A DNA stretch of 64,000 bases from Streptomyces sp. NBC_00154 (GTDB lineage Bacteria; Actinomycetota; Actinomycetes; Streptomycetales; Streptomycetaceae). The translations under genes and the position numbers were made by a program. Within the stretch, counting starts at the first letter, position 1. The number at the start of each line of letters is the position of its first letter. The notes below the pieces were generated by a model. It did no database searches. It saw only the letters and a list, made by a program, of their open reading frames with translations, and was not told the origin of the DNA. Of this stretch, positions 31,732 through 50,768 are shown piece by piece. The DNA lies in assembly GCF_026342835.1 (NCBI RefSeq), contig NZ_JAPEMI010000001.1, positions 1,432,501 to 1,496,500 of the forward strand. The letters run 5' to 3'.

Positions 31732-31749
31732 GCTCAACATATGCTCAAC
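31732..31749 (+). promoter_or_regulatory. Candidate SARP-binding direct repeat
   Basis: GCTCAAC is repeated exactly with a 4-bp spacer (ATAT), so the copies are 11 bp apart. A weaker third unit, GGTCGAA, lies a further 11 bp upstream at 31721-31727. Heptamers spaced one helical turn apart are the known site format of SARP regulators, and a SARP gene lies in this cluster. The site is 68 bp upstream of the flavoprotein's TTG start. Confidence 0.5.
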
Positions 31750-31816
31750 GGAGGCTCCACAAGCAACGCGCATGATCTGGCTCGGATTAAATCGAGCAAG
31801 TGAACGAGGGGGCGCG

Positions 31817-33643
31817 TTGACCGGGGGTTGGGGAAAAGTCGCCGTCGTCGGGGGCGGGCCCGCAGGGCTGTTCCTGGCGCGATTGATCCGTAGAGCGAGA
31901 CCTGCTGCATCGGTCGACGTGTACGAGCAGAACGCGCCCGACGAGGCATTCGGCTTCGGCGTGGTCTTCTCGGCCCGCACCATGTCCGAGCTGTGGAAGA
32001 ACGACCAGGAGACCCATGCGCGCATCGTCGCTGCGAGCGTGGCCGTGTCGGACATGGAATTGCGGCATCCGCGGGCCACGCTGCGGTATGGGGGCTTCGA
32101 CTTCTCCAGCATTTCCCGCCGGGAGCTGCTGCTGATCCTGCAGGAGCAGGCCGCCGAGGCCGGTGCCACACTCCACTTCGGGCACCCGGCGGCGCCCGGC
32201 AGCATCGACGAGGCCGACGTCGTGGTCTACGCGGACGGGGCGAACTCCTCCCACCGGGACGCGCGTCCGGGGCGTTTCGGCACGACCGTCCGGCACGGTG
32301 CGTCCCCGTACATGTGGCTGGGGACGCACGCCCCGTTCGACGCGGCGACCTTCTCGTTCGTCGAAACGGAGAACGGGCACTTCGCCGCCCACGCGTACCC
32401 CTATGCGGACGGTATGGCGACGGTGGTCATCGAGTGCGATCCCGGCACGTGGAAGGCATCCGGGATGGACCGCACCGGGGACTTCTCGCGGAACTCGGGC
32501 GGCAGCGACGAGGAGGCCCTGGGCCATCTCGGTGAGCTCTTCGCCGAACACCTCGGCGGACACGAGCTCATCGGCAACCGGAGCCGGTGGGCCACCTTCC
32601 GGACCGTGCACAACGAGCGCTGGTCCGACGGGAATGCGGTCCTGCTGGGCGACGCCGCCCATACCGCGCACTTCACGGTCGGCTCCGGCACCAAGATGGC
32701 GATGGAGGATGCGATCGCCCTTGCGGCGGCCCTCCGGCGGAACACCGATCCGGGATCGGCCTTTGCCGAGTACGAGCGGGAACGCCGCGGCCCGGTCGCC
32801 CGCACCCAGGAGCTGGCGGAGCCGAGCATGCGCTGGTGGGAGACGTTCGGGCGGCGTCTGCACATGGCGCCCGCCCAGTTCGGCCTGCACTTCATGACCC
32901 GGACCTCCGCACTGTCCTACGAGGGGATGCGCCGCCGCTTCCCCGACCGCGTCGACGAGGCCGAGACCGCCTACCGGACGTCAGGAGGCGCTGTCGGGGC
33001 GGAGCTCGTGGCAGCGGCCGGGGCCGTCCCGCAGCTGAGCGCGGTCGCGGCGCCCCTTCTGATGGGTTCCGTCCGGCTCCGCAACCGCCTGGTCGAGGTG
33101 GTGCCCGAGGCCTGTGGCGACCCGACGGCCGCCGTCCGCGCCGCCGAGGCGCGGGGAGCAGCCCTGGTCCTCGTCCGAGAGGCGCGCCCGGAGGCGGGGC
33201 CGCAGGGGCAGCCCGGGCATCGGCCTCCGGTCGCCCTCGGCCGGCTCGTACCGCCTGACCCGCAGGCGGCGGACCTCGAAGCGGTAGGCCTTCCCCCGCT
33301 CTTCGCCGAGATGGAGTGCCCACCGGCCGACGAGTGGTCGCCGGCCGGCGACGACCTGATGGCGGCCGTGCGGGCACTGGTGGCCCGCGGGGTGGAGGGC
33401 GTACTCCTGACCACGGGCGCCGGGCAGCCCCCCGGGTGGCACAGGCTGCTCGGGCACGCCGGCCGGATCAGGACCGAGGCCGGTGCCGCGGTCGCGGTCA
33501 CGGCACCCGGTGGGTGGGCGCCGGACCCGCACGGGACGGCGGCTGCCGACTCGTGGCCGACCCGGATCCATCTGGCTCTGATCACCGGACGGATCGATCT
33601 GATCGCGTCCGCTCCCCCGGCAGGGACCGGCACGACCGCATAG
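31817..33643 (+). CDS. FAD aryl-CoA monooxygenase (salicylyl-CoA 5-hydroxylase/anthraniloyl-CoA monooxygenase-like) with eroded C-terminal OYE domain
   Basis: A 608-residue flavoprotein. Residues 1-400 are a group A monooxygenase: VAVVGGGPAGLFLARLIRRA for the ADP part of FAD, GFGVVFSARTM, and VLLGDAAHTAHFTVGSG (GD motif). This pattern is closest to SdgC and anthraniloyl-CoA monooxygenases, which hydroxylate aryl-CoA thioesters. The rest resembles the start and end of an Old Yellow Enzyme barrel (GSVRLRNRLVEV; GQPPGWHRLLGHAGRIRTEAG) but is about half size and lacks the usual His pair. The TTG start has GAGGGGG upstream. Likely hydroxylates the CoA ester of the PKS product. Confidence 0.75.
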   Translation: MTGGWGKVAVVGGGPAGLFLARLIRRARPAASVDVYEQNAPDEAFGFGVVFSARTMSELWKNDQETHARIVAASVAVSDMELRHPRATLRYGGFDFSSISRRELLLILQEQAAEAGATLHFGHPAAPGSIDEADVVVYADGANSSHRDARPGRFGTTVRHGASPYMWLGTHAPFDAATFSFVETENGHFAAHAYPYADGMATVVIECDPGTWKASGMDRTGDFSRNSGGSDEEALGHLGELFAEHLGGHELIGNRSRWATFRTVHNERWSDGNAVLLGDAAHTAHFTVGSGTKMAMEDAIALAAALRRNTDPGSAFAEYERERRGPVARTQELAEPSMRWWETFGRRLHMAPAQFGLHFMTRTSALSYEGMRRRFPDRVDEAETAYRTSGGAVGAELVAAAGAVPQLSAVAAPLLMGSVRLRNRLVEVVPEACGDPTAAVRAAEARGAALVLVREARPEAGPQGQPGHRPPVALGRLVPPDPQAADLEAVGLPPLFAEMECPPADEWSPAGDDLMAAVRALVARGVEGVLLTTGAGQPPGWHRLLGHAGRIRTEAGAAVAVTAPGGWAPDPHGTAAADSWPTRIHLALITGRIDLIASAPPAGTGTTA

Positions 33644-33776
33644 GCCGTCGTCCGGCCCTTCCCCCATCCCTTCCCACCTGATTCGTCGACGCGGGCCCGC
33701 CCCATGCCCTGAGGGTCCGGACTGACGCCCCATGGAATCCGTTTTGACCACATTTCAGCGTAAGGGAGACGAGCGT

Positions 33777-36700
33777 ATGTCCGAGACCAACGCACTGCCT
33801 GCCGACGAGGGCAGCGGGACCGAACCGATCGCGATCATCGGCATGGGATGCCGATTCGCCGGTGGCGCCCACTCGCCCGAGGAATTCTGGAACATGCTCA
33901 TCGAGGGCCGGGACGGCGTCGCGGAGATCCCCGAGGAGCGCTGGGCCGAGTACGTCGAGGCGAGCGCAGAGAACGCCGCGGCACTGCGGAACACGACCCG
34001 GGTAGGCGCGTTCCTGGACGACGTGGCGGGATTCGACGCGGGCTTCTTCGGAATCCTGCCCCGCGAGGCCGAGCAGATGGACCCGCAGCACCGCCTCATG
34101 CTCGAGGTGGCGTGGGAGGCCCTTGAGCACGCCGGTGTTCCACCGCACCTGCTCGCCGGCGGTGACACCGGTGTCTACGTGGGCATCGGCACCGAGGACT
34201 ACGGCCGACGGCTGATGGAGGACCTGCCCCGGATCGAGGCATGGACCGGCATCGGCGCGGTCCACTGCGCCGCGGCCAACCGGATCTCGTACCACCTGGA
34301 CCTGCGCGGACCCAGCATGGCGGTGGACACCGCGTGCTCCGCCTCGCTGGTGGCTCTGCACCTCGCCTGCCAGGCGCTTGCCACGGGTGAGACCTCGCTG
34401 GCCATTGCCGGTGGGGTCAACGCGATGGTGCACCCGGCCGTCACGATGATCATGGACGCCGCAGGTGCCTGTTCCTCTGACGGGCGTTCGAAATCCTTCG
34501 ACTCCACCGCGGACGGCTACGGCCGGGGTGAGGGCGCCGGCGCCCTCGTGCTCAAGCGGCTCTCGGACGCGGTGACCGACGGCGACCGGGTGCTGGCCGT
34601 CGTCCGAGGAACCGGCATCATGCAGGACGGCCGCACCAACGGGATCATGCAGCCCAGCCGGGAGGCACAGGCCGACCTGCTGCGGCACACCTACCGGACC
34701 GCCGGGATCGCCCCGAGCTCGATCGGGTACGTCGAGGCGCACGGCACCGGGACCAACGTGGGCGACCCCATCGAGGCCGGGGCCCTGTCCGAGGTCCTCA
34801 GCACCGACCGGCCCGAGGGACAGCCCCTGCTGATCGGCTCCGTCAAGACCAACATCGGGCATCTGGAAGCGGGCGCGGGCGTCGCCGGCGTCATCAAGGC
34901 CGTCCTGGCGCTTCAGCACGGCGAGATCCCGCCAAGCCTGAACTGCACCGACCCGAATCCGGCCATCCCGTGGGACACCAACGGTCTGAAGGTCGTCACC
35001 GAGCCCACCGGCTGGCCCGCTTCGGACCGGCCGCGGCGCGCCGGAGTCTCCGGCTACGGCTTCGGCGGCACCATCGGCCACGTCATCCTGGAGGAGCCCG
35101 CCCGGACCGCCGCGGGATCGGCGGGAGCGGGCGCGAAGGCGGGCAGCGGCCATCACGCGCCGTGGCTGTTCCCCGTGTCGGGGGCATCCAGGGCCGGGCT
35201 GCGGGCCAACGCGTCCCGCCTCGCCGACTGGCTCGACGAAGCCGGCGGCGAGGTGTCACTGGACACCGTCGGCCACACCCTGGCCGCGCGGCGCTCGCAC
35301 CTGAGCCACCGTGGCGCGGTAGTGGCCGCGGACCGTGCCGGACTCGTCACCTCCCTGCGCTCCCTCGCCGCCGGCGAGGAGATCGCGGGTGTGACCACCG
35401 GCATCGTGGAGGGGCATTCGAAGAACGCCGTGTGGGTCTTTGCCGGGCAAGGGGCGCAGTGGATCGGCATGGGCCGTGATCTGCTGGGCGCGGAGCCCGC
35501 CTTCGCGAAGGTCATCGACGAACTCGGTCCCGTCTATGAGGAGGAGCTGGGCTTCACCGCCCGCGCGATCCTTGAGGGCGACACCCTGGAGGGCCCCGAG
35601 GTCCTGCAGCCGGTGACGTACGCCGTCCAGGTCGGCCTCGCCGCGACGTGGCGCTCCCTCGGTGTGGAACCCGCAGCGGTCATCGGCCACTCGATCGGTG
35701 AGCTCGCGGCGGCCGTGACGGCCGGCGGCATGTCCCTGCTCGACGGTGCTCGGCTGGTCTGCCGCCGGGCCCTGATGATGCGTCCGGCAGCCGGCAAGGG
35801 TGCGATGGCCCTGGTGAACCTCTCCTTCGAGGAGGCGACGGAGCGCCTCGCCGGCCGATCCGGCGTCACGGCTGCCATCTCCGCGTCGCCCATCTCCACG
35901 GTGATCGCCGGAAGCGCCGCCGCCGTCGAGGAGACCGTGCGGACGTGGGAGGCGCAGGGGGAACTGGTCGTCCGCAGGGTCCAGGCCGACATCGCCTTCC
36001 ACTCCTCGGAGATGGACCCGTTCGCGGCCGAACTGCCCTCCGTGATGCATGACCTGACCGGTGGCAGGCCCGAGGTCACGTTCTACTCCACGTCGCTGGA
36101 CGACCCTCGGGCGGACGTCGGACTCGGCGCCTCGTACTGGCCGGGGAATCTGCGCAACCCGGTGCGGTTCTCCCAGGCCGTGACCGCGGCGGTCGAGGAC
36201 GGGCACCGGCACTTCCTGGAGGTGTCGAGCCACCCGATCGTGTCCCACTCCGTCAACGAGACCCTCGGCGAGCTCGGCATCGACGATGCCGTGGCGGTCG
36301 GGACGCTCCGCCGCAACACGCCGGACCGGGTCACCCTGCTGGGCAATCTGGCCGCTCTGCACTGCGCCGGTGTGGCCGCCGACCTCGGCGCCCTGTTCAC
36401 GGGCACGACTCTCGCGGAGCTGCCCTCCGTGGCATGGCAGCACCAGACGTACTGGAAGGACACGCGCCCCGGTAGCGGCCGACGGGTGCTGCAGCACGAC
36501 CCGAAGGTCAACACCCTGCTCGGCGGCGCGACCAGGATCGCCGGCAGCACTCCGCTGTGGCTGTGGCAGACGCACCTGGACGAGGAGAGCCGCCCGTACC
36601 CGGGCCACCATCCGGTCCACAACGTGGAGATCATCCCGGCTGCGGTGCTGATGAACACGTTCCTGGAGGCCCTGGCGCAGACCGGGTTGTCCGCGCCCGG

Positions 36701-39134
36701 CGGCCGACGCCCCGCGCTGGTCGACGTGGCCCTGAAGGTGCCCGTCGCCGTCTCCGTACCGCGTGACATCCAGATCTCCTATCAGGACTCGACTCTGCGG
36801 CTGTCCTCCCGAATCAACGAGGAGGGCACCCAGGAGACCGAGGAATCGTGGCTCACCCACACCACCGCCTCGATCGATCCGGCCGGCGGCGTACTGGAGG
36901 ATCGCTTCGACCTCGACGAGGCACGGGCCCGTTGCAGCGAACCGGTGAGCACGGACTACGTCCTGGAGCGAGTGGCCCAGATCGGTGTGGCCGGTATGGG
37001 TTTCCCCTGGGAGATCCAGGAACTGCGGCGCGGCGGCCCCGACGAGCTGTTCGCCGTGATCGACACCGGCGAACCGGGGACAGCCACCTGGGCCTCGCTG
37101 CTCGACGGTGCGATGACGGTCACCTCGGTGCTGTTCCTCGGCGAACCGGTGCTGCGGATGCCCTCGCACATCGCGCGACTCGCGCTGATCGGTGAGCCGC
37201 CGCAGCGGGCGAACGTCCAAGTCCGGGCGGGCGAGGGCGAGGCCGGGGCGGACACACTCGACGTGGTCGTCGCCGACATGGACGGCAACGTGATCGCCAA
37301 TGTCACCGGGATCCGCCTCACCGTCCTGACCGGCGACCCGGGCGCCACTGCCGCGCCCCGCCAAATCGTCCACGAGATCGTCTGGCGTCCGCTCGAACTG
37401 CCCGCTGCCCGTCCGCTGGACACCGTGGTCGCCGTCGGCGGGCACCCGGCGTCGGACGAGGCACTTGCACAGGACTGCGCCCGGGCGGGGCTGGAGTTCC
37501 TCTCCGTACCCGGTCCGGACGGACTTGAGGCTGTCGGGGCCCGGCTCACCGACACCACCGCGGTCCTGGTGACCCCGGCGGCGCCGGCGGCCGACGACGC
37601 CCTGGGCCGGGCTGCCCACGACTCGGCCTGGGAACTCGGGCGTTCGGTACAGCAGATAGTCGCCGTCGCGGCGGGGCGGCCCCGGATCTGGTCCGTCACC
37701 ACCGGAGTGCGTGAGAGCGCGGACCGCAACGCCCTGGCCCAGTCGCCGGCCTGGGGCATCGGCCGGATCGTCGCGGCCGAGCACCCCGACCTGTGGGGTG
37801 GGATCGTCGACCTGGATCCGGCCGAGCCGGAGGCCTTCGGCCCGCTTCTGGAGGTGCTGCGCACCCGTCCCGAAGCCGACGTGATCGCGATCCGCGACGG
37901 CCTGGCGACGGCCTCGGTACTCGTGGCCGTGGGCGACAAGCCGGAGCGGAGCGCGGTCGAGTGCCGGCCCGAGGGGACCTATCTGGTGACGGGCGGTCTC
38001 GGCGCGCTGGGTCTTGAGGTGTCGCGCTGGCTGGCCGGCCGGGGCGCCCGCCGACTGGTCCTGGCCGGACGCCGCCGCTTCCCGGAGCGTTCGGAATGGG
38101 ACGCCCAGCAGGATCCGGAGGTCCGTGGCCAGATCGAGGCCGTGCGTGCCCTGGAGGGCCTCGGCGTCACCGTCGCCGTGGTGTCCCTGGACATCTCCGA
38201 CGCGGAGCAGGCGCGGAAGGTGCTCAGCTCGGCCGAGCTCGGACTGCCACCGATCCGGGGTGTGGTGCACGCGGCCGGTGTCGTCGACGGCCAGATGGTC
38301 GTCGACCTGGAGGAGGACTCGCTCCGCAAGGTCCTGCAGCCCAAGGTGGACGGCGCACTGGTGCTCAACGAGCTCTTCCCCGCCGGCAGCGTCGACTTCA
38401 TGGTCCTGTTCTCCTCCTGCGGCTACCTCTTCCAGTTCCCCGGTCAGGCCTCCTACGGATCGGCGAACGCCTTCCTGGACTCGCTGGCCAGGCATCGGCG
38501 AGCCGCCGGCCACGACGACACGGTCAGCTTCGGCTGGACATCCTGGCGGGGCCTGGGCATGTCGGCCTCGTCCGAGTTCATCTCGGCCGAGCTCGCCGCG
38601 TTCGGGCACGCCGAGATCTCGGCCACCGAGGCCCTGCGGGCCTGGGAGTACGCCGAGCGGTTCGGGGCCTCGCACTACGCGGTGTTCCGGCAGATCGCGA
38701 TGGACGGCGGCCCGCGCCGGATCCCGTTGACACAGGAACTCGCCGAGGTGGGCGACAGCGCCGGGACGGACGGGACCGAAGGCCAGGACTGGACGCAGTA
38801 CGAGGCGCAGGAGCTGCTCGCACTGCTCGTCGACGAGGTGCGCCGACAGGTGGCGGCCGAGATCAAGCTGGCTCCCGAAGAGCTCGATCTGCAACGCCCG
38901 CTGCTGGAGATGGGGCTCGACTCGGTGATGACGGTGGCCGTGCGCCGCCGCCTGGAGCGGCTGTTCCGACTGAGCCTGCCGGCGACTCTGCTGTGGAACC
39001 GGCCTACGGTCCTCGCGATCGCCGAGTACCTGGTGGAATGCCTCGCTCCGGTCGAGACCGCCGCTGAGGGGGACGCTGCCCCCGAAGCCACCGCCGGAGC
39101 AGGAATACCGGCGCCGGTGGTGACCGGCGTATGA
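33777..39134 (+). CDS. Iterative type I PKS, 6-methylsalicylic-acid-synthase type (KS-AT-DH/TH-KR-ACP)
   Basis: Multidomain synthase of 1785 residues building a salicylate-type aromatic acid from malonyl-CoA. KS: Cys187 in DTACSASL, then VEAHGTGT and KTNIGHLEAGAG. AT: GQGAQW and Ser639 in GHSIGE, with IAFHS favouring malonyl. DH/thioester-hydrolase: His945 in HPVHNVEIIP and Asp in LLDGAMT. KR: VTGGLGALG near 1400 and YGSANAFL near 1560. ACP: Ser1716 in GLDSVMT. Domain order and the PYPG-HxxxxxEIxPAAxLxNTFL stretch match 6-MSA synthases rather than orsellinate synthases, which lack KR. In the DH motif HxxxGxxxxP the Gly is Asn949. The ATG at 33777 follows AAGGGAGA. Confidence 0.88.
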   Translation: MSETNALPADEGSGTEPIAIIGMGCRFAGGAHSPEEFWNMLIEGRDGVAEIPEERWAEYVEASAENAAALRNTTRVGAFLDDVAGFDAGFFGILPREAEQMDPQHRLMLEVAWEALEHAGVPPHLLAGGDTGVYVGIGTEDYGRRLMEDLPRIEAWTGIGAVHCAAANRISYHLDLRGPSMAVDTACSASLVALHLACQALATGETSLAIAGGVNAMVHPAVTMIMDAAGACSSDGRSKSFDSTADGYGRGEGAGALVLKRLSDAVTDGDRVLAVVRGTGIMQDGRTNGIMQPSREAQADLLRHTYRTAGIAPSSIGYVEAHGTGTNVGDPIEAGALSEVLSTDRPEGQPLLIGSVKTNIGHLEAGAGVAGVIKAVLALQHGEIPPSLNCTDPNPAIPWDTNGLKVVTEPTGWPASDRPRRAGVSGYGFGGTIGHVILEEPARTAAGSAGAGAKAGSGHHAPWLFPVSGASRAGLRANASRLADWLDEAGGEVSLDTVGHTLAARRSHLSHRGAVVAADRAGLVTSLRSLAAGEEIAGVTTGIVEGHSKNAVWVFAGQGAQWIGMGRDLLGAEPAFAKVIDELGPVYEEELGFTARAILEGDTLEGPEVLQPVTYAVQVGLAATWRSLGVEPAAVIGHSIGELAAAVTAGGMSLLDGARLVCRRALMMRPAAGKGAMALVNLSFEEATERLAGRSGVTAAISASPISTVIAGSAAAVEETVRTWEAQGELVVRRVQADIAFHSSEMDPFAAELPSVMHDLTGGRPEVTFYSTSLDDPRADVGLGASYWPGNLRNPVRFSQAVTAAVEDGHRHFLEVSSHPIVSHSVNETLGELGIDDAVAVGTLRRNTPDRVTLLGNLAALHCAGVAADLGALFTGTTLAELPSVAWQHQTYWKDTRPGSGRRVLQHDPKVNTLLGGATRIAGSTPLWLWQTHLDEESRPYPGHHPVHNVEIIPAAVLMNTFLEALAQTGLSAPGGRRPALVDVALKVPVAVSVPRDIQISYQDSTLRLSSRINEEGTQETEESWLTHTTASIDPAGGVLEDRFDLDEARARCSEPVSTDYVLERVAQIGVAGMGFPWEIQELRRGGPDELFAVIDTGEPGTATWASLLDGAMTVTSVLFLGEPVLRMPSHIARLALIGEPPQRANVQVRAGEGEAGADTLDVVVADMDGNVIANVTGIRLTVLTGDPGATAAPRQIVHEIVWRPLELPAARPLDTVVAVGGHPASDEALAQDCARAGLEFLSVPGPDGLEAVGARLTDTTAVLVTPAAPAADDALGRAAHDSAWELGRSVQQIVAVAAGRPRIWSVTTGVRESADRNALAQSPAWGIGRIVAAEHPDLWGGIVDLDPAEPEAFGPLLEVLRTRPEADVIAIRDGLATASVLVAVGDKPERSAVECRPEGTYLVTGGLGALGLEVSRWLAGRGARRLVLAGRRRFPERSEWDAQQDPEVRGQIEAVRALEGLGVTVAVVSLDISDAEQARKVLSSAELGLPPIRGVVHAAGVVDGQMVVDLEEDSLRKVLQPKVDGALVLNELFPAGSVDFMVLFSSCGYLFQFPGQASYGSANAFLDSLARHRRAAGHDDTVSFGWTSWRGLGMSASSEFISAELAAFGHAEISATEALRAWEYAERFGASHYAVFRQIAMDGGPRRIPLTQELAEVGDSAGTDGTEGQDWTQYEAQELLALLVDEVRRQVAAEIKLAPEELDLQRPLLEMGLDSVMTVAVRRRLERLFRLSLPATLLWNRPTVLAIAEYLVECLAPVETAAEGDAAPEATAGAGIPAPVVTGV

Positions 39135-41421: not shown

Positions 41422-41675
41422 TGCCTGCCATCTACATACTCGACATCCCCGAGTTCGAACCAATTCTGCGTACCGCCCTGATCGCCGGAATGGAACAGGA
41501 GGACCTGGACGGCTATCTCAAGGTCAGCACGTCGGAGTCCGAGATCGTGCTCGAACGCCGGCACACGGACGTCCGCCCCGCTGTCTGGTTCGCCGCGCTG
41601 ACCGGGGGACTCGAGGGGCGGATCGTGCACTTCGACTTCGACCGGCTGCACCTGGCCGAGGTCGTGCCGTCATGA
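41421..41675 (+). CDS. Unknown 84-residue cluster protein
   Basis: A small soluble protein with no cysteine, no signal peptide and no family that I recognise. It starts MPAIYILDIPEFEPILRTAL and ends in a beta-rich part (EGRIVHFDFDRLHLAEV). Its start overlaps the VOC gene's stop (TGATG) and its stop overlaps the E1alpha start (ATGA). Such tight coupling argues it is real and needed with its neighbours, perhaps as a partner subunit. Composition matches the cluster. Confidence 0.7.
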   Translation: MPAIYILDIPEFEPILRTALIAGMEQEDLDGYLKVSTSESEIVLERRHTDVRPAVWFAALTGGLEGRIVHFDFDRLHLAEVVPS

Positions 41676-42793
41676 CCGTGCAGCAGGCCGCCGAGCACGT
41701 GGCGGCAGATCCCTGGCCCCCCGTGCAGGATCCGGCCCCGCTGCTGCCGGACCGTGCGACAGTACGCATGCTGGGCACACGCGCCGCGGACGGTGTGGAC
41801 CCCGCTCTGCTGCGGGAGCTCCACAGGCAGCTGGTCATCGGCCGTCGGTTCAACGAGCAGGCGACCGCCCTCACCCGGCAGGGCCGGCTCGCCGTCTACC
41901 CGTCGAGCCGGGGACAGGAGGCATGCCAGGTGGCGGCGGCCCTGGCGCTGCGGCCGCAGGACTGGCTCTTCCCCACCTATCGTGACACCGTGTCCGTGAT
42001 GGCTCGCGGTGTCGATCCGGTGCAGACGCTGACCCTGCTGCGCGGGGACTGGCACACCGGATACGACCCGGTGGAGCACCGGATTGCTCCGCTGTGCACC
42101 CCGCTGGCGACGCATCTCCCGCACGCTGTCGGTCTGGCCCACGCGGCCCGGCTCTCCGGTGACGACGTGGTGGCCCTCGCCCTCACCGGCGACGGCGGCA
42201 CCAGCGAGGGCGACTTCCACGAAGCGCTCAACTTCGCCGGCGTCCTGCGGGCACCCGTGGTGTTCCTCATACAGAACAACGGCTATGCCATCTCGGTGCC
42301 GCTGGCAAAGCAGTCCGCCGCTCCGTCCCTTGCGCACAAGGGCGTCGGCTACGGCGTCCCCGCGGTCCAGGTCGACGGCAACGACGTGATTGCCGTCCAC
42401 AGCGTCCTGTCCGCCGCGCTCGAGAGAGCACGGGCGGGCGGCGGGCCCACGCTCGTCGAGGCGCTGACCTACCGGCTCGACGCGCACACCAATGCCGACG
42501 ACGCCAGCCGCTACCGGGGGAACGACGAGGTGGAACGGTGGCGGGCGCACGATCCCGTCGTCAACATGGAGGGCTACATGCGGGCGGCCGGTCTGCTCGA
42601 CGAGGACGGAGAGCGGCAGGCCCGTGCCGCCGCCGAATCCATGGCGGCGCACATGCGGGCCGAACTGGCCGAAGACCCGATCGCCGATCCCATGGAGATG
42701 TTCGAGCACGTCTTTGCCGAGCCCACGCCTCAGTTGCGTGACCAGCGGAGCCTGCTCGCCGCCGAACTCAGGGCCGAGGCAGGGCACCGATGA
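41672..42793 (+). CDS. 2-oxoacid dehydrogenase E1 alpha subunit
   Basis: TPP-dependent subunit of 373 residues. The TPP site is GDGGTSEGDFHEALNFA through LIQNNGYAISVP (GDG-x~26-NN), and DAHTNADDASRYR is the phosphorylation-loop equivalent. It resembles branched-chain/pyruvate E1 alpha. With E1 beta and E2 downstream it should decarboxylate a 2-oxoacid to an acyl-CoA. The candidate oxoacid is branched-chain, or phenylpyruvate given the prephenate dehydratase in the cluster. Confidence 0.9.
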   Translation: MTVQQAAEHVAADPWPPVQDPAPLLPDRATVRMLGTRAADGVDPALLRELHRQLVIGRRFNEQATALTRQGRLAVYPSSRGQEACQVAAALALRPQDWLFPTYRDTVSVMARGVDPVQTLTLLRGDWHTGYDPVEHRIAPLCTPLATHLPHAVGLAHAARLSGDDVVALALTGDGGTSEGDFHEALNFAGVLRAPVVFLIQNNGYAISVPLAKQSAAPSLAHKGVGYGVPAVQVDGNDVIAVHSVLSAALERARAGGGPTLVEALTYRLDAHTNADDASRYRGNDEVERWRAHDPVVNMEGYMRAAGLLDEDGERQARAAAESMAAHMRAELAEDPIADPMEMFEHVFAEPTPQLRDQRSLLAAELRAEAGHR

Positions 42794-43842
42794 ACATACA
42801 GAGCTCGCAGACCACCATGGCCGAGGCGCTGAACACCGCGCTGCGCCACGCCCTGCGCGACGACCCGTCCGTACATGTCATGGGTGAGGACGTGGGCGCC
42901 CTCGGCGGTGTCTTCCGGATCACCGACGGGCTGGCGGCGGAGTTCGGCGACGACCGGTGCGCGGACACCCCGCTGGCCGAGTCGGGCATCCTCGGGGCCG
43001 CGGTCGGCATGGCCATGTACGGCTTGCGCCCGGTGGTCGAAATGCAGTTCGACGCCTTTGCCTACCCCGCGTTCGAGCAACTGGTCAGCCATGTCGCGAA
43101 GATGCGCAACCGGACCCGGGGCAAGCTGCCCATGCCGATCACGATCCGCATCCCCTACGGTGGCGGGATCGGCGGGGTGGAACACCACAGCGATTCCTCG
43201 GAGGGCTTCTACCTGCACACGCCGGGGCTGCACGTGGTGGCGCCCGCGACCGTCGGCGACGCGTACGGACTTCTCCGGCAGGCCATCGCCTCCGACGATC
43301 CGGTGGTCTTTCTGGAGCCGAAGCGCTGTTACTGGTCGAAGGAGAACTGGTCACCGGCCGAGCCGGTCGCTGTGGTGCCGCCCATAGGGCGGGCCGTCCT
43401 GCGCCGCACCGGGACCGCGGCCGTCCTCATCACATACGGGCCGAGCCTGGCGGTCTGCCTGGAGGCGGCGGACGCAGCGCGGGAGGAAGGCCTGGACGTC
43501 GCCGTCCTGGATCTGCGAAGCCTGGTGCCGTTCGACGACGAGACGGTGTGCGCCGCGGTGCGCGGCACCGGGCGGGCTGTGGTGGTGCACGAGGCCTCCG
43601 GATTCGGCGGGGCCGGGGCAGAGATCGCCGCTCGTGTGAGCGAGCGCTGCTTCCATCATCTGGAGGCGCCCGTGCTGCGGGTGGCCGGTCTGGACATCCC
43701 CTATCCGGCGCCACTTCTGGAACGGCATCACCTGCCTGGCGTGGACCGGATCCTCGACGCCGTCCGCCGGCTGAACTGGCCGGACACCGGCGTCGGCACC
43801 AGGACGGAGAGCGGTGGTGAGTGGTATGCCGTCGGTGCGTGA
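42790..43842 (+). CDS. 2-oxoacid dehydrogenase E1 beta subunit
   Basis: A 350-residue transketolase-like subunit pairing with E1 alpha, ATGA-overlapped with it. Family marks are VMGEDVGALGGVFRITDGL, DTPLAESGILGAAVGMAMYG, RIPYGGGIGGVEHHSDSSEG and LDLRSLVPFDDETV. The N-terminal half binds TPP with E1 alpha. The C-terminal domain VVVHEASGFGGAGAEIAARV is as in BkdB/PdhB. Being inside the operon suggests a dedicated complex rather than the housekeeping one. Confidence 0.92.
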   Translation: MNIQSSQTTMAEALNTALRHALRDDPSVHVMGEDVGALGGVFRITDGLAAEFGDDRCADTPLAESGILGAAVGMAMYGLRPVVEMQFDAFAYPAFEQLVSHVAKMRNRTRGKLPMPITIRIPYGGGIGGVEHHSDSSEGFYLHTPGLHVVAPATVGDAYGLLRQAIASDDPVVFLEPKRCYWSKENWSPAEPVAVVPPIGRAVLRRTGTAAVLITYGPSLAVCLEAADAAREEGLDVAVLDLRSLVPFDDETVCAAVRGTGRAVVVHEASGFGGAGAEIAARVSERCFHHLEAPVLRVAGLDIPYPAPLLERHHLPGVDRILDAVRRLNWPDTGVGTRTESGGEWYAVGA

Positions 43843-45085
43843 CTTCGTGCTGCCGGACCTCGGCGAGGGACTGCTCGAGGCGGAGATCGTGAGGTGGCTG
43901 GTCGCGGACGGGGACCCGGTCGCCGTGGACCAGCCGGTGGTCGAGGTGGAGACGGCGAAGGCCGTCGTGGAACTCCCCTGCCCCTACGCGGGCGTGGTCT
44001 CCCACGTGTACGGCGGAGAAGGCGACGTTCTGGCCGTCGGGCATCCGGTGATCTCGGTCAGGGTCGAGGAGAGCGCGGACCTGCCCGGCCGCGGAGCGGA
44101 AGAGGCGCAGCCGGCAGGCGGCTCGGGCAGCGTCCTGGTCGGCTACGGCACTCGGGAGACGCCGCGGCGTCCCGGTGCGTCCGCTGCGCGGCTCGGCTCC
44201 CGGCCGGCCGCCGTGTCCGCCGCGGCGGCGAACCCCGGCCCAATCCCTGTGATCTCGCCTCTCGTACGGCAGCTGGCCCGTCGGCACGGCCTGGATCTGC
44301 GGACCGTGACGGGCACCGGCTCCGACGGCCTGATTCTGCGTTGCGACGTCGATGCGGCGATCCGCCGGAAGGAGGAGGCCGTCCCCGGCGCGCACATCGG
44401 CGTCCGGGTGCCGCTGCGCGGCCGACGGGCGGCCGCCGCGGCGCAGTTCACCCGCAGCCGCCGGGAGATCCCCGACGCCACCTGCTGGGTGGAGGCCGAT
44501 GCCACCGCCCTGGTGGAGGCGAGGGCCGTGCTCGCAGCTCAAGGGGATTCCCCGATCGGGCTGTTCGCCCTGCTGGCCCGGGTCTGTGTCACAGGCCTCG
44601 CCCGGTACCCGCAGCTCAACGCGAGCGTCGACACCGAGCGGGGGGAGATCATCCAGTGGCCGCAGGTGCACCTGGGCTTCGCTGCGCAGTCGGACCGGGG
44701 ACTGACCGTCCCCGTGATGCGGGACGCGCACCTGATGGACACGGCGCGGCTGGCAGGGGAACTGGCCCGGCTGACCAGGGCGGCCCGCGAAGGAGCGCTC
44801 ACCCCCGCCGAGGTCACGGGCGGGACCTTCACCTTGAACAACTACGGCGTGTTCGGAGTGGACGGCTCGACCCCGATCCTCAACCACCCGGAGGCCGCGA
44901 TGCTCGGGGTGGGACGGATCACCGACAAGCCGTGGGTCCACAAGGGCGAGCTGGCCGTACGCAAGACCGTCCAGCTTTCCTTCACCTTCGACCACCGGGT
45001 GTGCGACGGGGCGGACGCCGGGGGCTTCCTCCGGTACGTCGCCGACTGCGTGGAACAACCCCTGAGGCTGCTGCGGGAGTTCTAG
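43826..45085 (+). CDS. Dihydrolipoyl acyltransferase E2
   Basis: E2 core of 419 residues. Lipoyl domain: FVLPDLGEGLLEAEIVRW with lipoylated Lys45 in VETAKAVVEL. A peripheral-subunit-binding domain follows an Ala/Pro linker (ISPLVRQLARRHGLDLRTVT). The catalytic domain has FTFDHRVCDGADAGGF (HxxxDG). Only one lipoyl domain is present. The ATG at 43826 is chosen because it opens the canonical N-terminus; a GTG at 43814 is also possible. Both overlap the E1 beta end. An E3 must come from elsewhere. Confidence 0.92.
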   Translation: MPSVRDFVLPDLGEGLLEAEIVRWLVADGDPVAVDQPVVEVETAKAVVELPCPYAGVVSHVYGGEGDVLAVGHPVISVRVEESADLPGRGAEEAQPAGGSGSVLVGYGTRETPRRPGASAARLGSRPAAVSAAAANPGPIPVISPLVRQLARRHGLDLRTVTGTGSDGLILRCDVDAAIRRKEEAVPGAHIGVRVPLRGRRAAAAAQFTRSRREIPDATCWVEADATALVEARAVLAAQGDSPIGLFALLARVCVTGLARYPQLNASVDTERGEIIQWPQVHLGFAAQSDRGLTVPVMRDAHLMDTARLAGELARLTRAAREGALTPAEVTGGTFTLNNYGVFGVDGSTPILNHPEAAMLGVGRITDKPWVHKGELAVRKTVQLSFTFDHRVCDGADAGGFLRYVADCVEQPLRLLREF

Positions 45086-45137: not shown

Positions 45138-45911
45138 ATGGTGAACAGCCTCCCCACGACCGGACCGTCCTGGATCAAGCGGTTCCACCCGGCCCCCGAA
45201 GCCGCCACCCGTCTGGTGTGCTTTCCGTACGCCGGGGGCTCGGCCGGCTACTACCACGGCATGTCTGCGAGGGTGTCCCCGAAGGTTGAGCTGCTGGCGG
45301 TCCAGTATCCGGGGCGTCAGGACCGTTACGCCGAGAAACCCGTGGACGACATCGGGGAACTGGCCGACGAAGTCACCGAAGCCCTGATACCCGGGGCGCT
45401 CGAGAAACCGTTGGCCCTGTTCGGGCACAGCATGGGGGCTTCCGTCGCCTTCGAGGTGGCCCGGCGCCTCGAACACCGCGGCGTCATGCCTTCGGCGCTC
45501 TTCGTCTCCGCCCGGCCCGGCCCGTCCGCAAACAGGAACGAAACACTCCACCTATCCACCGATGCAGACCTGGAACGCGAGATACGCAGCCTCGGCGGCA
45601 CGGGCGCCGAGGTCCTGAACGACGAGGAGATTCTGCAGATGGTCCTGCCGGTGGTCCGCAACGACTACCGGGCTGCCGAGACCTACCGCTATGTGCCGGG
45701 ACCCGATGTGACCTGCCCGGTGGTCGCCTTCGTGGGCGAGGGCGACCCGAAGGCCACGGTCGCGGAGACCGGCGTCTGGGAGCGGCACACCACCGGACCC
45801 TTCGATCTGACGGTCTTCCCCGGCGGGCATTTCTATCTGAACGAGCACCAGGCGGCGGTCGTCGGCGCCCTGCTGCGGCACCTCACCCCGGCCGGCACAC
45901 CACGGCGGTGA
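45138..45911 (+). CDS. Type II thioesterase
   Basis: A 257-residue editing thioesterase of the kind found beside PKS and NRPS genes, removing wrong acyl groups from carrier domains. The nucleophile Ser98 is in FGHSMGAS. Other marks are RLVCFPYAGGSAGYYH, VQYPGRQDRY and the His in FPGGHFYLNEHQ. It lies 52 bp after E2, the last intact gene of the plus-strand run. It could also release the PKS product, since the PKS carries no C-terminal TE. Confidence 0.92.
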   Translation: MVNSLPTTGPSWIKRFHPAPEAATRLVCFPYAGGSAGYYHGMSARVSPKVELLAVQYPGRQDRYAEKPVDDIGELADEVTEALIPGALEKPLALFGHSMGASVAFEVARRLEHRGVMPSALFVSARPGPSANRNETLHLSTDADLEREIRSLGGTGAEVLNDEEILQMVLPVVRNDYRAAETYRYVPGPDVTCPVVAFVGEGDPKATVAETGVWERHTTGPFDLTVFPGGHFYLNEHQAAVVGALLRHLTPAGTPRR

Positions 45912-46227: not shown

Positions 46228-47127
46228 CTATATCCGGCTGGCGACAGTCTTCTTGGTGAGCGCGAGAAATCTGTCCAGGCTGGGCACGCCCTCCCGGCTT
46301 CGCCGCCATGTCATGGTGGCGGGGGCGCGGAAGTCCGCGTCCTGAAGCGGGAATGCCAGCAGTTCGCCCCGCTCGACCTCGCTGCGGACCGCCATCTCGG
46401 GCAGCAGGGCCAGCCCCATCCCCGCGGCCACGCACGCGCGCAACGGGGCGATGCCGGAGACCTCCACCTCGAGCTTCAAGCTCTCGGGGCCCAGCTCCGC
46501 CATGGCCTTGTCGAACATCTCGCGGAATCCGCAGCCGCGTTGGGTGGCCAGGAAGCGCTCACCGTGAAGGTCTGCCGCGTGGACACGCTCCTGCCTGCTG
46601 AGCCGGTGGCCGACCGGGGTGGTGACCAGGAGCCGCTCCTGGAAGAGCACCCTGCTCGCGTACTTGTCGTCCTTGGGCGGCGCGTCGAAGGTGAAACAGA
46701 CATCGAGTTCCCCCCGGCGCACGGACTCGTACAGCTCTCGCCGGTTTCCCACGTCCACGCTGACGTTCACCTTGCCGTACAGCGCCCGGTACTCGGCAAG
46801 GACGGGCGGGATCGCATGCGTACAGAAGGTCTCCAACCCGCCGATGGCGAGAGCCCCGGTGGGTTCCTGCATGTCGAGGACGCCCACCGTGGCGGCCTCG
46901 TCGATCAGCAGCAGCACCTGGTCCGCGTACTCGCGGAGCCGGATGCCGGCACTGGTGAGGCGCAGCTTCCGGTTCGACCGCTCGAAGAGCTTGGTGCCCA
47001 GTTCGGCTTCCAGCGCCTGGATCTGTTCCGTGACGCTGGATTGTGCATAGTGAAGTTCTGCCGCTGCTTTCGTAAAGCTCAGGCTTTGCGCGACGGCACG
47101 GAAGGACTTCAGGTGACGGATCTCCAT
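46228..47127 (-). CDS. LysR-family regulator
   Basis: A 299-residue LysR-type regulator. The N-terminal winged HTH is MEIRHLKSFRAVAQSLSFTK followed by AAAELHYAQSSVTEQIQALE. The effector domain has GALAIGGLETFCTHAIPPVL and the late segment ACVAAGMGLALLPEMAV. The ATG at 47127 follows GGGAGGGA. It is divergent from the exporter gene, the usual LysR geometry, so control of that exporter is likely. The effector is unknown. Confidence 0.92.
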   Translation of the reverse strand: MEIRHLKSFRAVAQSLSFTKAAAELHYAQSSVTEQIQALEAELGTKLFERSNRKLRLTSAGIRLREYADQVLLLIDEAATVGVLDMQEPTGALAIGGLETFCTHAIPPVLAEYRALYGKVNVSVDVGNRRELYESVRRGELDVCFTFDAPPKDDKYASRVLFQERLLVTTPVGHRLSRQERVHAADLHGERFLATQRGCGFREMFDKAMAELGPESLKLEVEVSGIAPLRACVAAGMGLALLPEMAVRSEVERGELLAFPLQDADFRAPATMTWRRSREGVPSLDRFLALTKKTVASRI

Positions 47128-47257
47128 GTGGCCACGATCCCTCCCCCAGTTCTGATGTATCGGGCTCCCCGATACCACGCATCGTAACTGCCCGCTTCCC
47201 TCTCGTGCTCGAAACCGTCAGGCTCGGTACAAGAAGCCGTCCCGCATGGACGGATTT

Positions 47258-47275
47258 TTAATGGTTGACCATCAA
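47258..47275. promoter_or_regulatory. Near-perfect inverted repeat before the exporter gene
   Basis: TTAATGGTTGACCATCAA has arms TTxATGGT and ACCATxAA around TG, with a single mismatch. It stands 25 bp before the exporter's ATG in an AT-rich patch between divergent LysR and MFS genes. It is a candidate operator for LysR or another repressor. Confidence 0.5.
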
Positions 47276-47299
47276 TTGCGTGATTCACGGGAGTTCTTC

Positions 47300-48745
47300 A
47301 TGGCAATTCCGGCCACCCGGCCGAGCACACCGGCAGGTGCGCCCGGCTCGTCAGATGTCGGCGCCGGCCCGGCCCGTTCCCATCGGGGTCTCCTGGTGGG
47401 CCTCGCGCTCGGCTACTTCATGGTCCTCATGGACACCACCATCGTCACTGTCGCGCTTCCGGGCATCGGGGAGAGCCTCTCGGCGGGCCTCAGCTCCCTG
47501 CAATGGGTGTCCAACGGCTACACCCTGACCTTCGCCGCCTTCCTGCTCACCGCGGGCACCCTCTCCGACCGCTTCGGCGGACGGCGGGTGTTCCTTGTCG
47601 GGCTCTGGACCTTCGGTCTCATCTCCGGGGTCTCCGCGCTGGCCAACTCGGTGGAACTGCTCGTGGTCCTGCGCGGTCTGCTGGGTATCTCCGGCGCACT
47701 GCTCCTGCCCACTTCGCTGGCCATCGTCGCAAACACGTTCTCCGACCCGGCGGCCCGGGCGAAGGCGCTCGGCAGCTGGGCTGCGATCACCGGCGTCGCG
47801 CTCGCGGCCGGCCCCCTCGTCGGCGGCGTACTGACCGACGCCATCGGCTGGCGGGCCATCTTCCTGGTCAACATCCCGATCGCGTTGCTGAGCATCGTCA
47901 TCACCACCAAGAACGCCGGAGAGACGCGCCGCAATGCGGCGCGCGGCCTCGACCTGCCCGGGCAGCTGACCGCGATCGTGGCCCTGGCGGCCCTGACGTT
48001 CGGGCTGATCCAGGCGGGTACGGCAGGCTGGACGGCGCCCGAGGTACTCGGCTCGTTCGCCGCCTTCGTGGTCGCCATGGGGCTCTTCATCGCAGTGGAG
48101 CGGCGGGAAGCCACCGAACGGCACACGCCGATGCTGCCGCTGAAGCTGTTCCGCAGCGGCACCTTCTCGGCAGCGCTGTTCGCCGGCCTGCTGATCAACT
48201 TCGCACTGTCCGGTGTGCTGTTCACGCTCTCCCTGCTCTTCCAGCAGGGCCGGGGATACTCCGCGTTCCTCGCGGGACTGGCCTTCCTGCCACTGACCCT
48301 GCCCACCGCGTTCAACCCGATCTTCACGGGCCGGCTGGTCGCCCGAATCGGCCCGCGCAAGCCGGCCACAGCCGGCTTCGTGCTGATGGGAGTCGGCACC
48401 CTGATCCAGGCGGGTACCACCTCGGACTCGGCCGTGTCGGTCGCGGTGAGTTCGTTCGGACTGCTCCTCCTCGGATTCGGTATCTCCTACGCGATGCCTT
48501 CGCTCGTCGTGTCCGTCATGGGGTCGGTGCCGCGGGAGCTGTCCGGTATCGGCTCGGGCGCCCTCAACTCGGCCCGTCAGACCGGAGCTGTGGTGGGAGT
48601 CGCCATTCTCGGTTCCATCCTGAACGGCGCTTCGTCGATCGAGACCGGCACCAAGGTCGGCGTGATCGTCTCCGGCGTGCTGCTGCTGATCGGAGCCGTC
48701 GTAGTCTTCGGCTTCGTAGGACGGGAGCAGAAGACAACTGCATAG
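47300..48745 (+). CDS. DHA2-family MFS exporter (EmrB/QacA type)
   Basis: A 481-residue drug:H+ antiporter with about 14 hydrophobic segments. Motif A-like GTLSDRFGGRRVFLVG follows segment 2, DTTIVTVALPGIGESL lies in segment 1 (motif D1) and GPLVGGVLTDAIGWRAIFLV is motif C plus the following loop. It probably exports the cluster product or provides self-resistance. The ATG at 47300 follows CGGGAG; an in-frame ATG at 47246 lies upstream of the operator-like repeat and is less likely. Confidence 0.9.
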   Translation: MAIPATRPSTPAGAPGSSDVGAGPARSHRGLLVGLALGYFMVLMDTTIVTVALPGIGESLSAGLSSLQWVSNGYTLTFAAFLLTAGTLSDRFGGRRVFLVGLWTFGLISGVSALANSVELLVVLRGLLGISGALLLPTSLAIVANTFSDPAARAKALGSWAAITGVALAAGPLVGGVLTDAIGWRAIFLVNIPIALLSIVITTKNAGETRRNAARGLDLPGQLTAIVALAALTFGLIQAGTAGWTAPEVLGSFAAFVVAMGLFIAVERREATERHTPMLPLKLFRSGTFSAALFAGLLINFALSGVLFTLSLLFQQGRGYSAFLAGLAFLPLTLPTAFNPIFTGRLVARIGPRKPATAGFVLMGVGTLIQAGTTSDSAVSVAVSSFGLLLLGFGISYAMPSLVVSVMGSVPRELSGIGSGALNSARQTGAVVGVAILGSILNGASSIETGTKVGVIVSGVLLLIGAVVVFGFVGREQKTTA

Positions 48746-48746
48746 T

Positions 48747-48880: not shown

Positions 48881-49816
48881 TTGGAAATCGGATTGCTTGG
48901 TCCACTTGTGGTGTCTTACGAGGGGAGATCGGTTCAACCGACAGCCGCCAAGCAGCGCACACTTCTGGCACTGCTGGTGCTGCACGCGGGGCAACTGGTG
49001 CTCACCGACTCGATCGTGGACGAACTGTGGGGAAACGATCCCTGCCTCAGCGCGGCCACCACAGTCCGGACCTACATATGCCAGATCCGCAAGCTCTTAG
49101 GTCATCTCCTGTCCGATCCGCGGCGCGATCCGCAGGAGATCCTGCAGGCCGTCCCGGGCGGATACAGGCTGAAGATGCCCGACGCCGCGTCGGACGCCGA
49201 CCGGTACGAAAGGTCGGTCGCCGCCGGCCGGGAGGCACTCGCCTCGGGTGACTACGCCGTGGCCGGCACCAGATTCGAGACCGCACTCGGCCTGTGGCGT
49301 GGCCCCGCTCTCATGGATGTACGGATGGGAACCCGGCTCCAGGCCGCGGCGCAGCGGCTGGAGGACTCCCGGCTGATCGTCCTGGAGCACCGGCTGGACG
49401 CGGACCTGCAGCTGGGCCGCCACCGGGAACTGCTCGGTGAACTCTCCGGCCTGTGCGTGGACCATCCACTGCACGAAGGGCTGCACGCGCAGTACATGCT
49501 CGCCCTGTACCGCTCCGACCGGCGGTCCGAGGCGCTCGCGGTGTTCCAGCGGCTGCGTACGGCGATGGTCGAGGATCTGGGCCTTGAGCCGTCGACCCGG
49601 GTGCAGAACCTGCAGCAGGACATCCTGCGGTCCGGAAACAACGGGCCCGCGCCCGAGCTGACCGCGTTGCTGCGGGCACAGTCCAGGACGATCGTCGAAC
49701 TCACTCTGCGCATCGCGGAGATAGAGGACCGGCTCGGCCTGGACAGCCCCCGGGTGCCGGGCAGCCCTTCCCCGCAGAGCGGGCCCCGAGAGAGCAGGCA
49801 CAGCTATGCGCGCTGA
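48881..49816 (+). CDS. SARP-family pathway activator with a TTA codon
   Basis: A 311-residue Streptomyces antibiotic regulatory protein. An OmpR-like winged HTH at the N-terminus (MEIGLLGPLVVSYEGRSVQP; TTVRTYICQIRKLLG) is followed by a BTAD helical domain (DADRYERSVAAGREAL; PLHEGLHAQYMLALYRSDR; VEDLGLEPSTRVQNLQQ). The start is TTG at 48881. Codon 73 (49097-49099) is TTA, which needs the bldA tRNA, so translation is tied to development. It likely activates the PKS operon through the repeat at 31732-31749. Confidence 0.92.
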   Translation: MEIGLLGPLVVSYEGRSVQPTAAKQRTLLALLVLHAGQLVLTDSIVDELWGNDPCLSAATTVRTYICQIRKLLGHLLSDPRRDPQEILQAVPGGYRLKMPDAASDADRYERSVAAGREALASGDYAVAGTRFETALGLWRGPALMDVRMGTRLQAAAQRLEDSRLIVLEHRLDADLQLGRHRELLGELSGLCVDHPLHEGLHAQYMLALYRSDRRSEALAVFQRLRTAMVEDLGLEPSTRVQNLQQDILRSGNNGPAPELTALLRAQSRTIVELTLRIAEIEDRLGLDSPRVPGSPSPQSGPRESRHSYAR

Positions 49817-50768
49817 ACCGAGATATGCCTATCTGGGGCCGGAGGGCACCTTCACCGAGGCGGCGCTGCGCTTGCTGCCCGAGGCCGCCGGAGCGGTGTG
49901 CGAGCCGTTTCCGACCGTGAGCTCGACCCTGGACGCGGTGCGGTCGGGTGGCTGCCTCGCGGCCGTTGTGCCGTTGGAGAACTCGGTCCGCGGTGTGGTG
50001 CCCGCGACGCTGGAGGATCTGATATCCGGTGGTGCCACGCTGCAGTTCGACGCAGAGATCGAACTGCCGGTGACCTTCGCGCTGATGGCACGTCCGGGGG
50101 CGGCGGTCCAGGACATCCGGCGGGTTCTCAGCCATCCGCATGCCCATGGGCAGTGCCACCGCTGGCTCACCCAGCGGCTGCCCGGGGTGGAGGTCTGCCT
50201 CTCCACATCCACCGCCGCGGCAGCCCGGGAGATCGCGGAATCCTCGTCGCCGCACGCGCGGTACGACGCAGCGATCGCAGCGCCCATCGCGGCCGCACGC
50301 TACGGGCTGTCGGTGCTCGCCTCGGGCATCGGGGAGCGTCGGGACGCCGTCACCCGGTTCGTCTCCGTGCGGGGCACCGGCCCGTCCCCGGCCCGGACGG
50401 GCCGGGACCGTACCTCTCTCGTGGTGACCGCCGACGGCGCGCACTCAGGAGCGCTGGTGGACATTCTGACCGAGTTCTCCGCCCGCGGGGTGGGCCTGAC
50501 CTGGATCCAGTCCTGGCCGACCGGCACGGCCCTCGGCAGCTACCACTTCTTCCTCGACGTCGAGGGGCACATCGAGGACGGCGCCGTGGGCGACGCGATG
50601 ATCGCCCTGCGGCGCAGGGCCGTGGAGGTGTCCTTCCTGGGCAGCTACCCGCACGTGGGCGGGAAGCCGGGGCGGCTCGACGGCAGCGGCGGGGATGGCA
50701 CTGGCGGCAGTCCCGAGGCCTGGCTGAGCGCCCTGCGCGCGGGGGAGGTACTCGTGGGCGGGCGGTGA
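49806..50768 (+). CDS. pheA: Prephenate dehydratase (PheA) with altered Phe-sensing motif
   Basis: Converts prephenate to phenylpyruvate. The protein has 320 residues: a PDT domain (YAYLGPEGTFTEAALRLLPE, VVPLENSVRGVVPATLEDL, DAVTRFVSV) and an ACT domain. Of the two Phe-binding ACT motifs, GALV is present at 215-218, but the ESRP motif reads QSWP at 235-238, so feedback inhibition may be lost. Its start overlaps the SARP gene by 11 bp, so the two are co-expressed. A role in feeding the cluster with phenylpyruvate or phenylalanine is inferred. Confidence 0.9.
   Translation: MRAEPRYAYLGPEGTFTEAALRLLPEAAGAVCEPFPTVSSTLDAVRSGGCLAAVVPLENSVRGVVPATLEDLISGGATLQFDAEIELPVTFALMARPGAAVQDIRRVLSHPHAHGQCHRWLTQRLPGVEVCLSTSTAAAAREIAESSSPHARYDAAIAAPIAAARYGLSVLASGIGERRDAVTRFVSVRGTGPSPARTGRDRTSLVVTADGAHSGALVDILTEFSARGVGLTWIQSWPTGTALGSYHFFLDVEGHIEDGAVGDAMIALRRRAVEVSFLGSYPHVGGKPGRLDGSGGDGTGGSPEAWLSALRAGEVLVGGR

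Follow-up and report, generated by a model that had tools for sequence, protein, structure and literature searches.

A Streptomyces gene cluster combining a 6-methylsalicylic acid synthase-type polyketide synthase with a conserved VOC-p84 enzyme pair: a candidate pathway that opens the ring it builds

Introduction

In a stretch of 64,000 nucleotides from Streptomyces sp. NBC_00154 (contig NZ_JAPEMI010000001.1; G000:C2:1432501-1496500 in a host genome of 10.39 Mb), referred to here as the window, an iterative type I polyketide synthase (PKS) is encoded together with an aryl-acid ligase, a flavoprotein, a VOC-fold enzyme, an 84-residue protein (p84) and a 2-oxoacid dehydrogenase. The question raised by this locus is what becomes of the aromatic acid that such a synthase would make. 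A preliminary description of the sequence took the hydroxylated aryl ester of coenzyme A (CoA) to be the product itself. This view is probably not the whole story: the VOC enzyme and p84 form a conserved pair known from apparent ring-degradation cassettes, and the solved protein closest to the former is titled a ring-cleaving dioxygenase.

The reading preferred here, to which a probability of about 0.5 is given, is that the PKS product would be a salicylic acid with a substituent at position 6. Conversion to its CoA ester and hydroxylation at position 5 would turn this acid into a para-diol of gentisate type, the ring of which VOC and p84 would then cleave. In this likely mechanism, an iterative PKS is coupled to a module for ring opening that is shared with aromatic catabolism. 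A more specific proposal, in which a two-component ring-cleaving dioxygenase (a single-domain VOC protein plus an MmoB/DmpM-type effector) operates in a phenylacetyl-CoA-primed PKS pathway leading to an exported non-aromatic product, is tentative and somewhat doubtful.

Gene content and boundaries

The cluster comprises 13 genes and spans 31772-50768, as delimited by combining the list of open reading frames, coding-bias gene calls, Pfam, NCBIfam and translations (the Pfam and NCBIfam scans ran on shorter starts for the hydroxylase, MFS and SARP genes). In the list below, the PKS-type clusters are this one and four relatives described later.

31772..33643, plus strand: HYD, flavoprotein monooxygenase (NCBIfam PRK08255 on the N-terminal part; best PDB match VioD; start codon and FAD motif)
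33732..39134, plus strand: iterative type I PKS, KS-AT-DH/TH-KR-ACP (Pfam, NCBIfam, four related PKSs)
39131..40837, plus strand: AL, aryl-acid adenylate-forming ligase (PDB 5wm2; TIGR02275)
40834..41421, plus strand: VOC-fold enzyme, predicted ring-cleaving dioxygenase (Pfam PF00903; 9u42)
41421..41675, plus strand: p84, 84-residue partner protein with a predicted DmpM/T4moD/MmoB effector fold
41672..42793, plus strand: E1alpha of a 2-oxoacid dehydrogenase, taken for branched-chain type (Pfam; TIGR03181; genomic paralogue)
42790..43842, plus strand: E1beta (Pfam; genomic paralogue)
43826..45085, plus strand: E2 acyltransferase with lipoyl, E3-binding and catalytic domains (Pfam; genomic paralogue)
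45138..45911, plus strand: type II thioesterase (PF00975, 197 bits)
46228..47127, minus strand: LysR regulator (Pfam; found in 5/5 PKS-type clusters)
47246..48745 (start unsure), plus strand: MFS transporter (Pfam; found in 5/5 PKS-type clusters)
48881..49816, plus strand: SARP regulator (domain scan; codon 73, numbered from TTG 48881, is TTA)
49806..50768, plus strand: prephenate dehydratase, the genome's second copy, with altered phenylalanine (Phe)-binding motifs (NF008865)

Every gene named in the preliminary description was confirmed, as were the order and the strands that it gave; the tight plus-strand run that it reported is right as to genes and order, whereas its start at 31732 lies out of the hydroxylase frame, for which ATG 31772 is the probable start. 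Because consecutive genes from the PKS through E2 have 1 to 17 bases in common, these very likely form one translationally coupled operon. That the run of genes is not due to chance follows from their recurrence in Streptomyces hydrogenans JCM 4771 (L012), where all 13 are found in the same order with identities of 74-93%, and since the S. hydrogenans genes past the dehydratase have no match among the window genes, the 3′ boundary can be placed after the dehydratase. The S. hydrogenans counterpart of the SARP gene lacks the TTA codon, unlike that of the window. The 20 called genes of 27025-56387 include no second PKS, nonribosomal peptide synthetase (NRPS) or sugar genes, as had been stated earlier, and the second PKS or NRPS required if 6-methylsalicylic acid (6-MSA) were to be donated to another assembly line is therefore absent from this region.

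The VOC enzyme and its partner p84

The VOC enzyme matches Pfam PF00903, and its closest solved relative by profile is 9u42 from Acinetobacter (83.9 bits over 163 residues; 29% identity in a Foldseek alignment). The putative metal triad H17/H93/E141 is invariant in the VOC alignment (A2) and aligned with that of 9u42, an entry that its depositors titled homogentisate 1,2-dioxygenase, under the molecule name Glyoxalase, and for which no paper turned up in the literature. The entry holds one chain and no partner protein, whereas the VOC enzyme here is paired with p84. On sequence grounds the enzyme is predicted to be a ring-cleaving dioxygenase; glyoxalase I and fosfomycin resistance protein were considered as alternative identities and set aside, as both gave weaker matches than 9u42.

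The p84 model shares the fold of the DmpM/T4moD/MmoB effectors (PF02406), with a weak profile-profile match, although the Pfam model for that family matches neither the window p84 at E 10 nor any protein of its own genome (0 matches). Unlike these effectors, p84 is partnered by a VOC protein, and no diiron hydroxylase was found. A hidden partner of that kind was considered and rejected, as the diiron hydroxylase family PF02332 was found in 0/11 genomes with p84, against 9/9 genomes with PF02406 in the positive control. A role as acyl or aryl carrier protein was likewise rejected, since p84 gives no carrier-protein (PP-binding) hit and is modelled with the effector fold.

VOC and p84 occur as a conserved pair and in some cases as one fused protein. 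Among 5.77 billion proteins p84 has 12 relatives (itself counted) at the sensitivity of that search, and in a family-level sample it occurs in 11/394 genomes, in all 11 of them after a VOC gene; the VOC profile was found in 2/396 genomes of a phylum sample and 9/392 of a genus sample (the window genome being counted in all three samples). A search of a plasmid collection with the VOC protein returned 83 records, 22 of them at a coverage of at least 80%, of which 8 were hand-picked and fetched, along with 5 reached through a search with a neighbouring hydrolase. A profile scan of 29 sources, with seeds drawn partly from the same loci (and omitting the fetched record L070, where no VOC is annotated), detected VOC in 28 and an adjoining p84 in 25, the VOCs without p84 (L054, L068, L069) being distant ones. 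One of these, in Variovorax sp. SRS16 (L068:7343-10896), lies with a hydrolase, a PRK08132-type flavoprotein and a DUF2783 small protein. Fusions of VOC and p84 exist in Variovorax, Cupriavidus and Streptomyces sp. NBC_01450, as well as in protein P0065, whose model was built from VOC rows only and has low confidence in the p84 part (block means ~51-71); a joint alignment of the fusion with both families misplaced p84 and was not used.

VOC-p84 cassettes in other genomes

Apart from the PKS-type clusters and a type marked by DAHP synthase, the pair is found in 13 loci (L023, L024, L025, L028-L035, L071, L072) that look like ring-degradation cassettes. An aryl-acid ligase is present in 13/13, as is an alpha/beta hydrolase of ~415 residues (12 by profile scan, the Pseudosulfitobacter copy separately), while a HYD-like flavoprotein is found in 11/13, maleate isomerase in 9/13 and a small thioesterase in 5/13 (the last by profile). 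The best match of the Tistrella and Rhodococcus flavoproteins is salicylyl-CoA 5-hydroxylase, and the Tistrella isomerase matches the maleate cis-trans isomerase of PDB 4fq7 with 226.5 bits. Within the sequence fetched for Tistrella, Variovorax VAI-C and Tsukamurella, no annotated gene other than that of VOC is a candidate for cleaving the ring. The simplest reading of such a cassette would be that an aryl acid is converted to aryl-CoA, 5-hydroxylated, released and cleaved by VOC-p84, after which the ring-opened compound would be hydrolysed to maleate and a 2-oxo acid and the maleate isomerised to fumarate. No description of this aryl-CoA-to-maleate cassette, which is seen in Actinomycetota and Pseudomonadota, turned up in the literature.

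The hydrolase itself (L031:6597-7865 and relatives) has no NCBIfam model at 1e-5 in its Tistrella, Rhodococcus and Variovorax copies, and the Rhodococcus copy has no PDB sequence match. In the Mycobacterium avium locus (L071) the ligase and hydrolase lie >10 kb from VOC, and the HYD-like match falls within a gene annotated as heme-binding protein; the annotation also places a 2-oxo acid dehydrogenase E2 at a distance of a few kb from these two genes (L071:18517-20157, on a plasmid). The second type of VOC-p84 cluster (L013, L015, L017, L019, L020, L051, L052) holds class-II DAHP synthase, O-methyltransferase, a 269-residue protein, AMP ligase, LysR, MFS, VOC, p84 and a PRK08132-like flavoprotein, with S-adenosylmethionine synthetase in 3/7, and its product is likely to be shikimate-derived.

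Polyketide synthase, ligase and flavoprotein

The PKS is a single module with the domain order KS-AT-DH/TH-KR-ACP (Pfam), and it is by this order that it is classed as of 6-MSA-synthase type, the sequence comparison covering four related PKSs; the best NCBIfam model, NF045894, gives 1259.5 bits, under its cut-off of 1740. Chlorothricin ChlB1 and similar proteins, which we take to represent 6-MSA-type iterative type I PKS systems, have the same single KS-AT-DH/TH-KR-ACP protein (likened by architecture, not sequence). Unlike in those systems, neither a KAS III transferase nor a second PKS/NRPS nor any sugar gene was found here, and ring hydroxylation and a predicted ring-opening module are added. 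The HxxxGxxxxP site of the DH/TH domain reads HPVHNVEIIP in the window and S. hydrogenans but HPVQGVEIIP in the three other clusters; the N-for-G difference is consistent with, though no proof of, a product different from that of the other three.

The best PDB relative of AL is the salicylate-AMP ligase 5wm2 (537.6 bits), presumably CahJ of cahuitamycin; the genes of the present cluster include none identified as encoding an aryl carrier protein. Against TIGR02275 (DHB/salicylate-AMP ligase) AL reaches 542.5 bits, below the cut-off of 723.55, but its closest solved relatives are nonetheless of that kind. HYD carries the FAD-binding monooxygenase domain PF01494 and a GGGPAGL motif, and resembles salicylyl-CoA 5-hydroxylase (PRK08255) in its N-terminal monooxygenase part, for which this is the best NCBIfam match (319.9 bits over residues 1-392 of the shorter version called at 31919-33643, missing the cut-off of 1078), whereas its C-terminal part matches nothing. 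This extension of ~230 residues (window 32950-33643) is found in 5/5 PKS-type clusters and is shorter in the G100 locus described below; the Tistrella flavoprotein lacks it. On visual inspection the beginning of the extension resembles old yellow enzymes, with no domain match, and in S. hydrogenans (L012:156-2261) a low-complexity repeat is inserted in it. The PKS type, the activation of an aryl acid by the ligase and the aryl-CoA-hydroxylase-like flavoprotein ahead of the PKS, all proposed in the preliminary description, are upheld by the domain order, the solved relatives of AL and the N-terminal likeness of HYD, respectively.

Related clusters and their evolution

Besides S. hydrogenans, three clusters (G202, G194, G584) share HYD, PKS, AL, VOC, p84, LysR, MFS and SARP with the window. 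E1/E2, thioesterase and dehydratase are found in two of the five (window and S. hydrogenans), although the G202 contig ends just past SARP, so that the dehydratase is unscorable there. The G194 and G584 clusters hold a carboxyltransferase; beside the latter (L053:2217-3713) lies a UbiD-type decarboxylase with BagN/FevL as its best NCBIfam match (471 bits, cut-off 1000).

A different arrangement is seen in G100 (L073 and L023; G100:C1, ~986600-1001500), where an MSAS-type PKS (52% identity) and KAS III stand beside HYD and AL, these genes running divergently from those for maleate isomerase, VOC, p84 and hydrolase. In a VOC tree that takes in 11/13 cassette VOCs (L032 and L034 left out), window and S. 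hydrogenans group together (100/99) and the 11 maleate-cassette VOCs are set apart (96/94); many other forks are open, with unsettled bootstrap and long branches that meet. As the G100 VOC falls within the cassette group, the tree hints that PKS and VOC-p84 may have been joined more than once.

As for the surroundings of the cluster in the window, glycine-cleavage, serine hydroxymethyltransferase and serine dehydratase genes lie upstream, and downstream (51374-56387) are genes for a PAS-GAF-SpoIIE phosphatase, for a 298-residue protein that contains repeated motifs and matches no family, and for a terpene synthase.

Precursor supply

E1alpha, E1beta and a complete E2 are all present (Pfam), and the ‘private’ 2-oxoacid dehydrogenase, as it had been called, is indeed a duplicate: a second set of the same genome, at 3.02 Mb, has an E1alpha ~70% and an E1beta 79% identical to the cluster copies, with 70% over 176 residues for E2, and a third set lies at 3.00 Mb. 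Two neighbouring sets are the pattern that we presume for Streptomyces bkd genes, which is the basis of the bkd label on the genomic copies. The cluster E1/E2 is accordingly taken for a bkd duplicate of branched-chain type, though family and structure names say pyruvate dehydrogenase (TIGR03181, 423 bits for E1alpha, cut-off 411.35; the names of the best PDB matches likewise).

The dehydratase is 48% identical to the housekeeping copy and scores 258.3 bits against NF008865, above the cut-off of 219; given this score and its TRF motif, its identity as a prephenate decarboxylase of the SalX/BacA type was rejected. In the window and S. hydrogenans it reads HSGAL and IQSWP, against HPGAL and IQSRP in the housekeeping copy, at positions which we assume to be the Phe-binding sites of prephenate dehydratase, and because these motifs are altered, Phe feedback may have been lost.

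In pristinamycin synthesis, PglB/C is described as converting phenylpyruvate to phenylacetyl-CoA, with PglD as a thioesterase (PMC7089894). Compared by that description, not by sequence, the phenylglycine operon pglABCDE is like the present cluster in its E1alpha/E1beta pair and thioesterase fed by phenylpyruvate, and differs in that E2 is present here and no counterpart of pglA or pglE was identified. This precedent, and the occurrence of E1/E2 and the altered dehydratase in the same two clusters, suggests phenylacetyl-CoA as the most likely PKS starter in the window and S. hydrogenans.

Proposed pathway and alternative explanations

The chemistry of the proposed pathway is throughout what we infer from gene content, conservation, homology and the fold of the p84 model. 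From its architecture, the PKS would join a starter and malonyl units to a 6-substituted salicylic acid. The extra dehydratase would supply phenylpyruvate without Phe feedback, which the private E1/E2 would oxidatively decarboxylate to the phenylacetyl-CoA starter. AL and HYD would then give the 5-hydroxy aryl-CoA, and the VOC enzyme, through its putative triad, would break the bond that links the carbon carrying the carboxyl group to the adjacent hydroxylated one, on the model of gentisate 1,2-dioxygenase and homogentisate 1,2-dioxygenase. The part of p84 might be to gate or couple this step, a role that DmpM and T4moD have with diiron enzymes. The result would be a substituted maleylpyruvate-type 2-oxo acid or a derivative, exported by the MFS transporter.

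Several observations weigh against ring opening by VOC-p84. In the S. chartreusis cassette, cupin, fumarylacetoacetate hydrolase and maleylpyruvate isomerase genes lie upstream; an intradiol dioxygenase lies near the cassette in Pseudosulfitobacter; and the M. avium locus has a second VOC. Moreover, the profile scan found neither alpha/beta hydrolase nor maleate isomerase in any of the five PKS-type clusters, and the hydrolase was not found elsewhere in the window genome either (in a search run without a positive control).

The absence of both genes from the five clusters also speaks for the alternative that survives best, unlikely as it is, in which the product stays aromatic: 6-MSA-CoA would be hydroxylated and released, VOC-p84 would do some other tailoring (isomerisation or aryl-CoA monooxygenation), and the other genes would be explicable without ring opening. 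The VOC fold is indeed nearest to CoA-thioester epimerases; however, the closest solved sequence bears the title of a ring-cleaving dioxygenase, and most of the cassettes bearing VOC-p84 include maleate isomerase.

Rather improbable, too, is that the private E1/E2 works after ring opening, oxidatively decarboxylating the ring-opened acid to a thioester that the thioesterase releases. This acid would suit E1/E2 because a beta-branched 2-oxo acid resembles natural substrates of branched-chain dehydrogenases, and both the duplication of a genomic set and the position of E1/E2 after VOC-p84, with overlapping start codons, fit such a role. The operon order suits either role, however, and the dedicated dehydratase, present in the same two clusters, would be left unexplained. 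It would be equally unexplained, unless it served self-resistance or another step, if E1/E2 gave a branched-chain acyl-CoA starter (isobutyryl or 2-methylbutyryl), an option to which little credence is given: the close identity of E1alpha and E1beta to the copy taken for bkd favours it, but the genome already has two other sets. Finally, it is very improbable that ligase, hydroxylase, VOC and p84 form a salvage or self-protection route degrading surplus 6-MSA outside synthesis, as the complete cassette (with hydrolase and maleate isomerase) adjoining the G100 PKS might suggest, since neither of those two genes was found in the five PKS-type clusters, which have VOC-p84 among PKS, LysR, MFS and SARP.

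Significance

Under the preferred reading of ring opening by VOC-p84, a parallel is an engineered Escherichia coli route to maleate, which likewise joins an aromatic acid from a natural-product pathway to gentisate ring cleavage (predicted in the present case) but is, by its description, engineered and chorismate-based, unlike this cluster (PMC5658364). The earlier statement that no described pathway has this gene set stands as far as literature titles and abstract openings go, where no natural cluster alike was found, MIBiG lying outside the comparison.

The cluster possibly contains a new enzyme pairing, VOC plus p84, which is also a testable enzyme pair for the aryl-CoA-to-maleate cassette. 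If the proposal is true, an effector fold known from diiron monooxygenases would work with a VOC enzyme, and the pair would serve as a gene handle for finding such clusters. Ring opening would be added to the repertoire of bacterial 6-MSA-type polyketide pathways, and the cluster would represent an unusual case of a natural pathway that builds a benzene ring and then breaks it.

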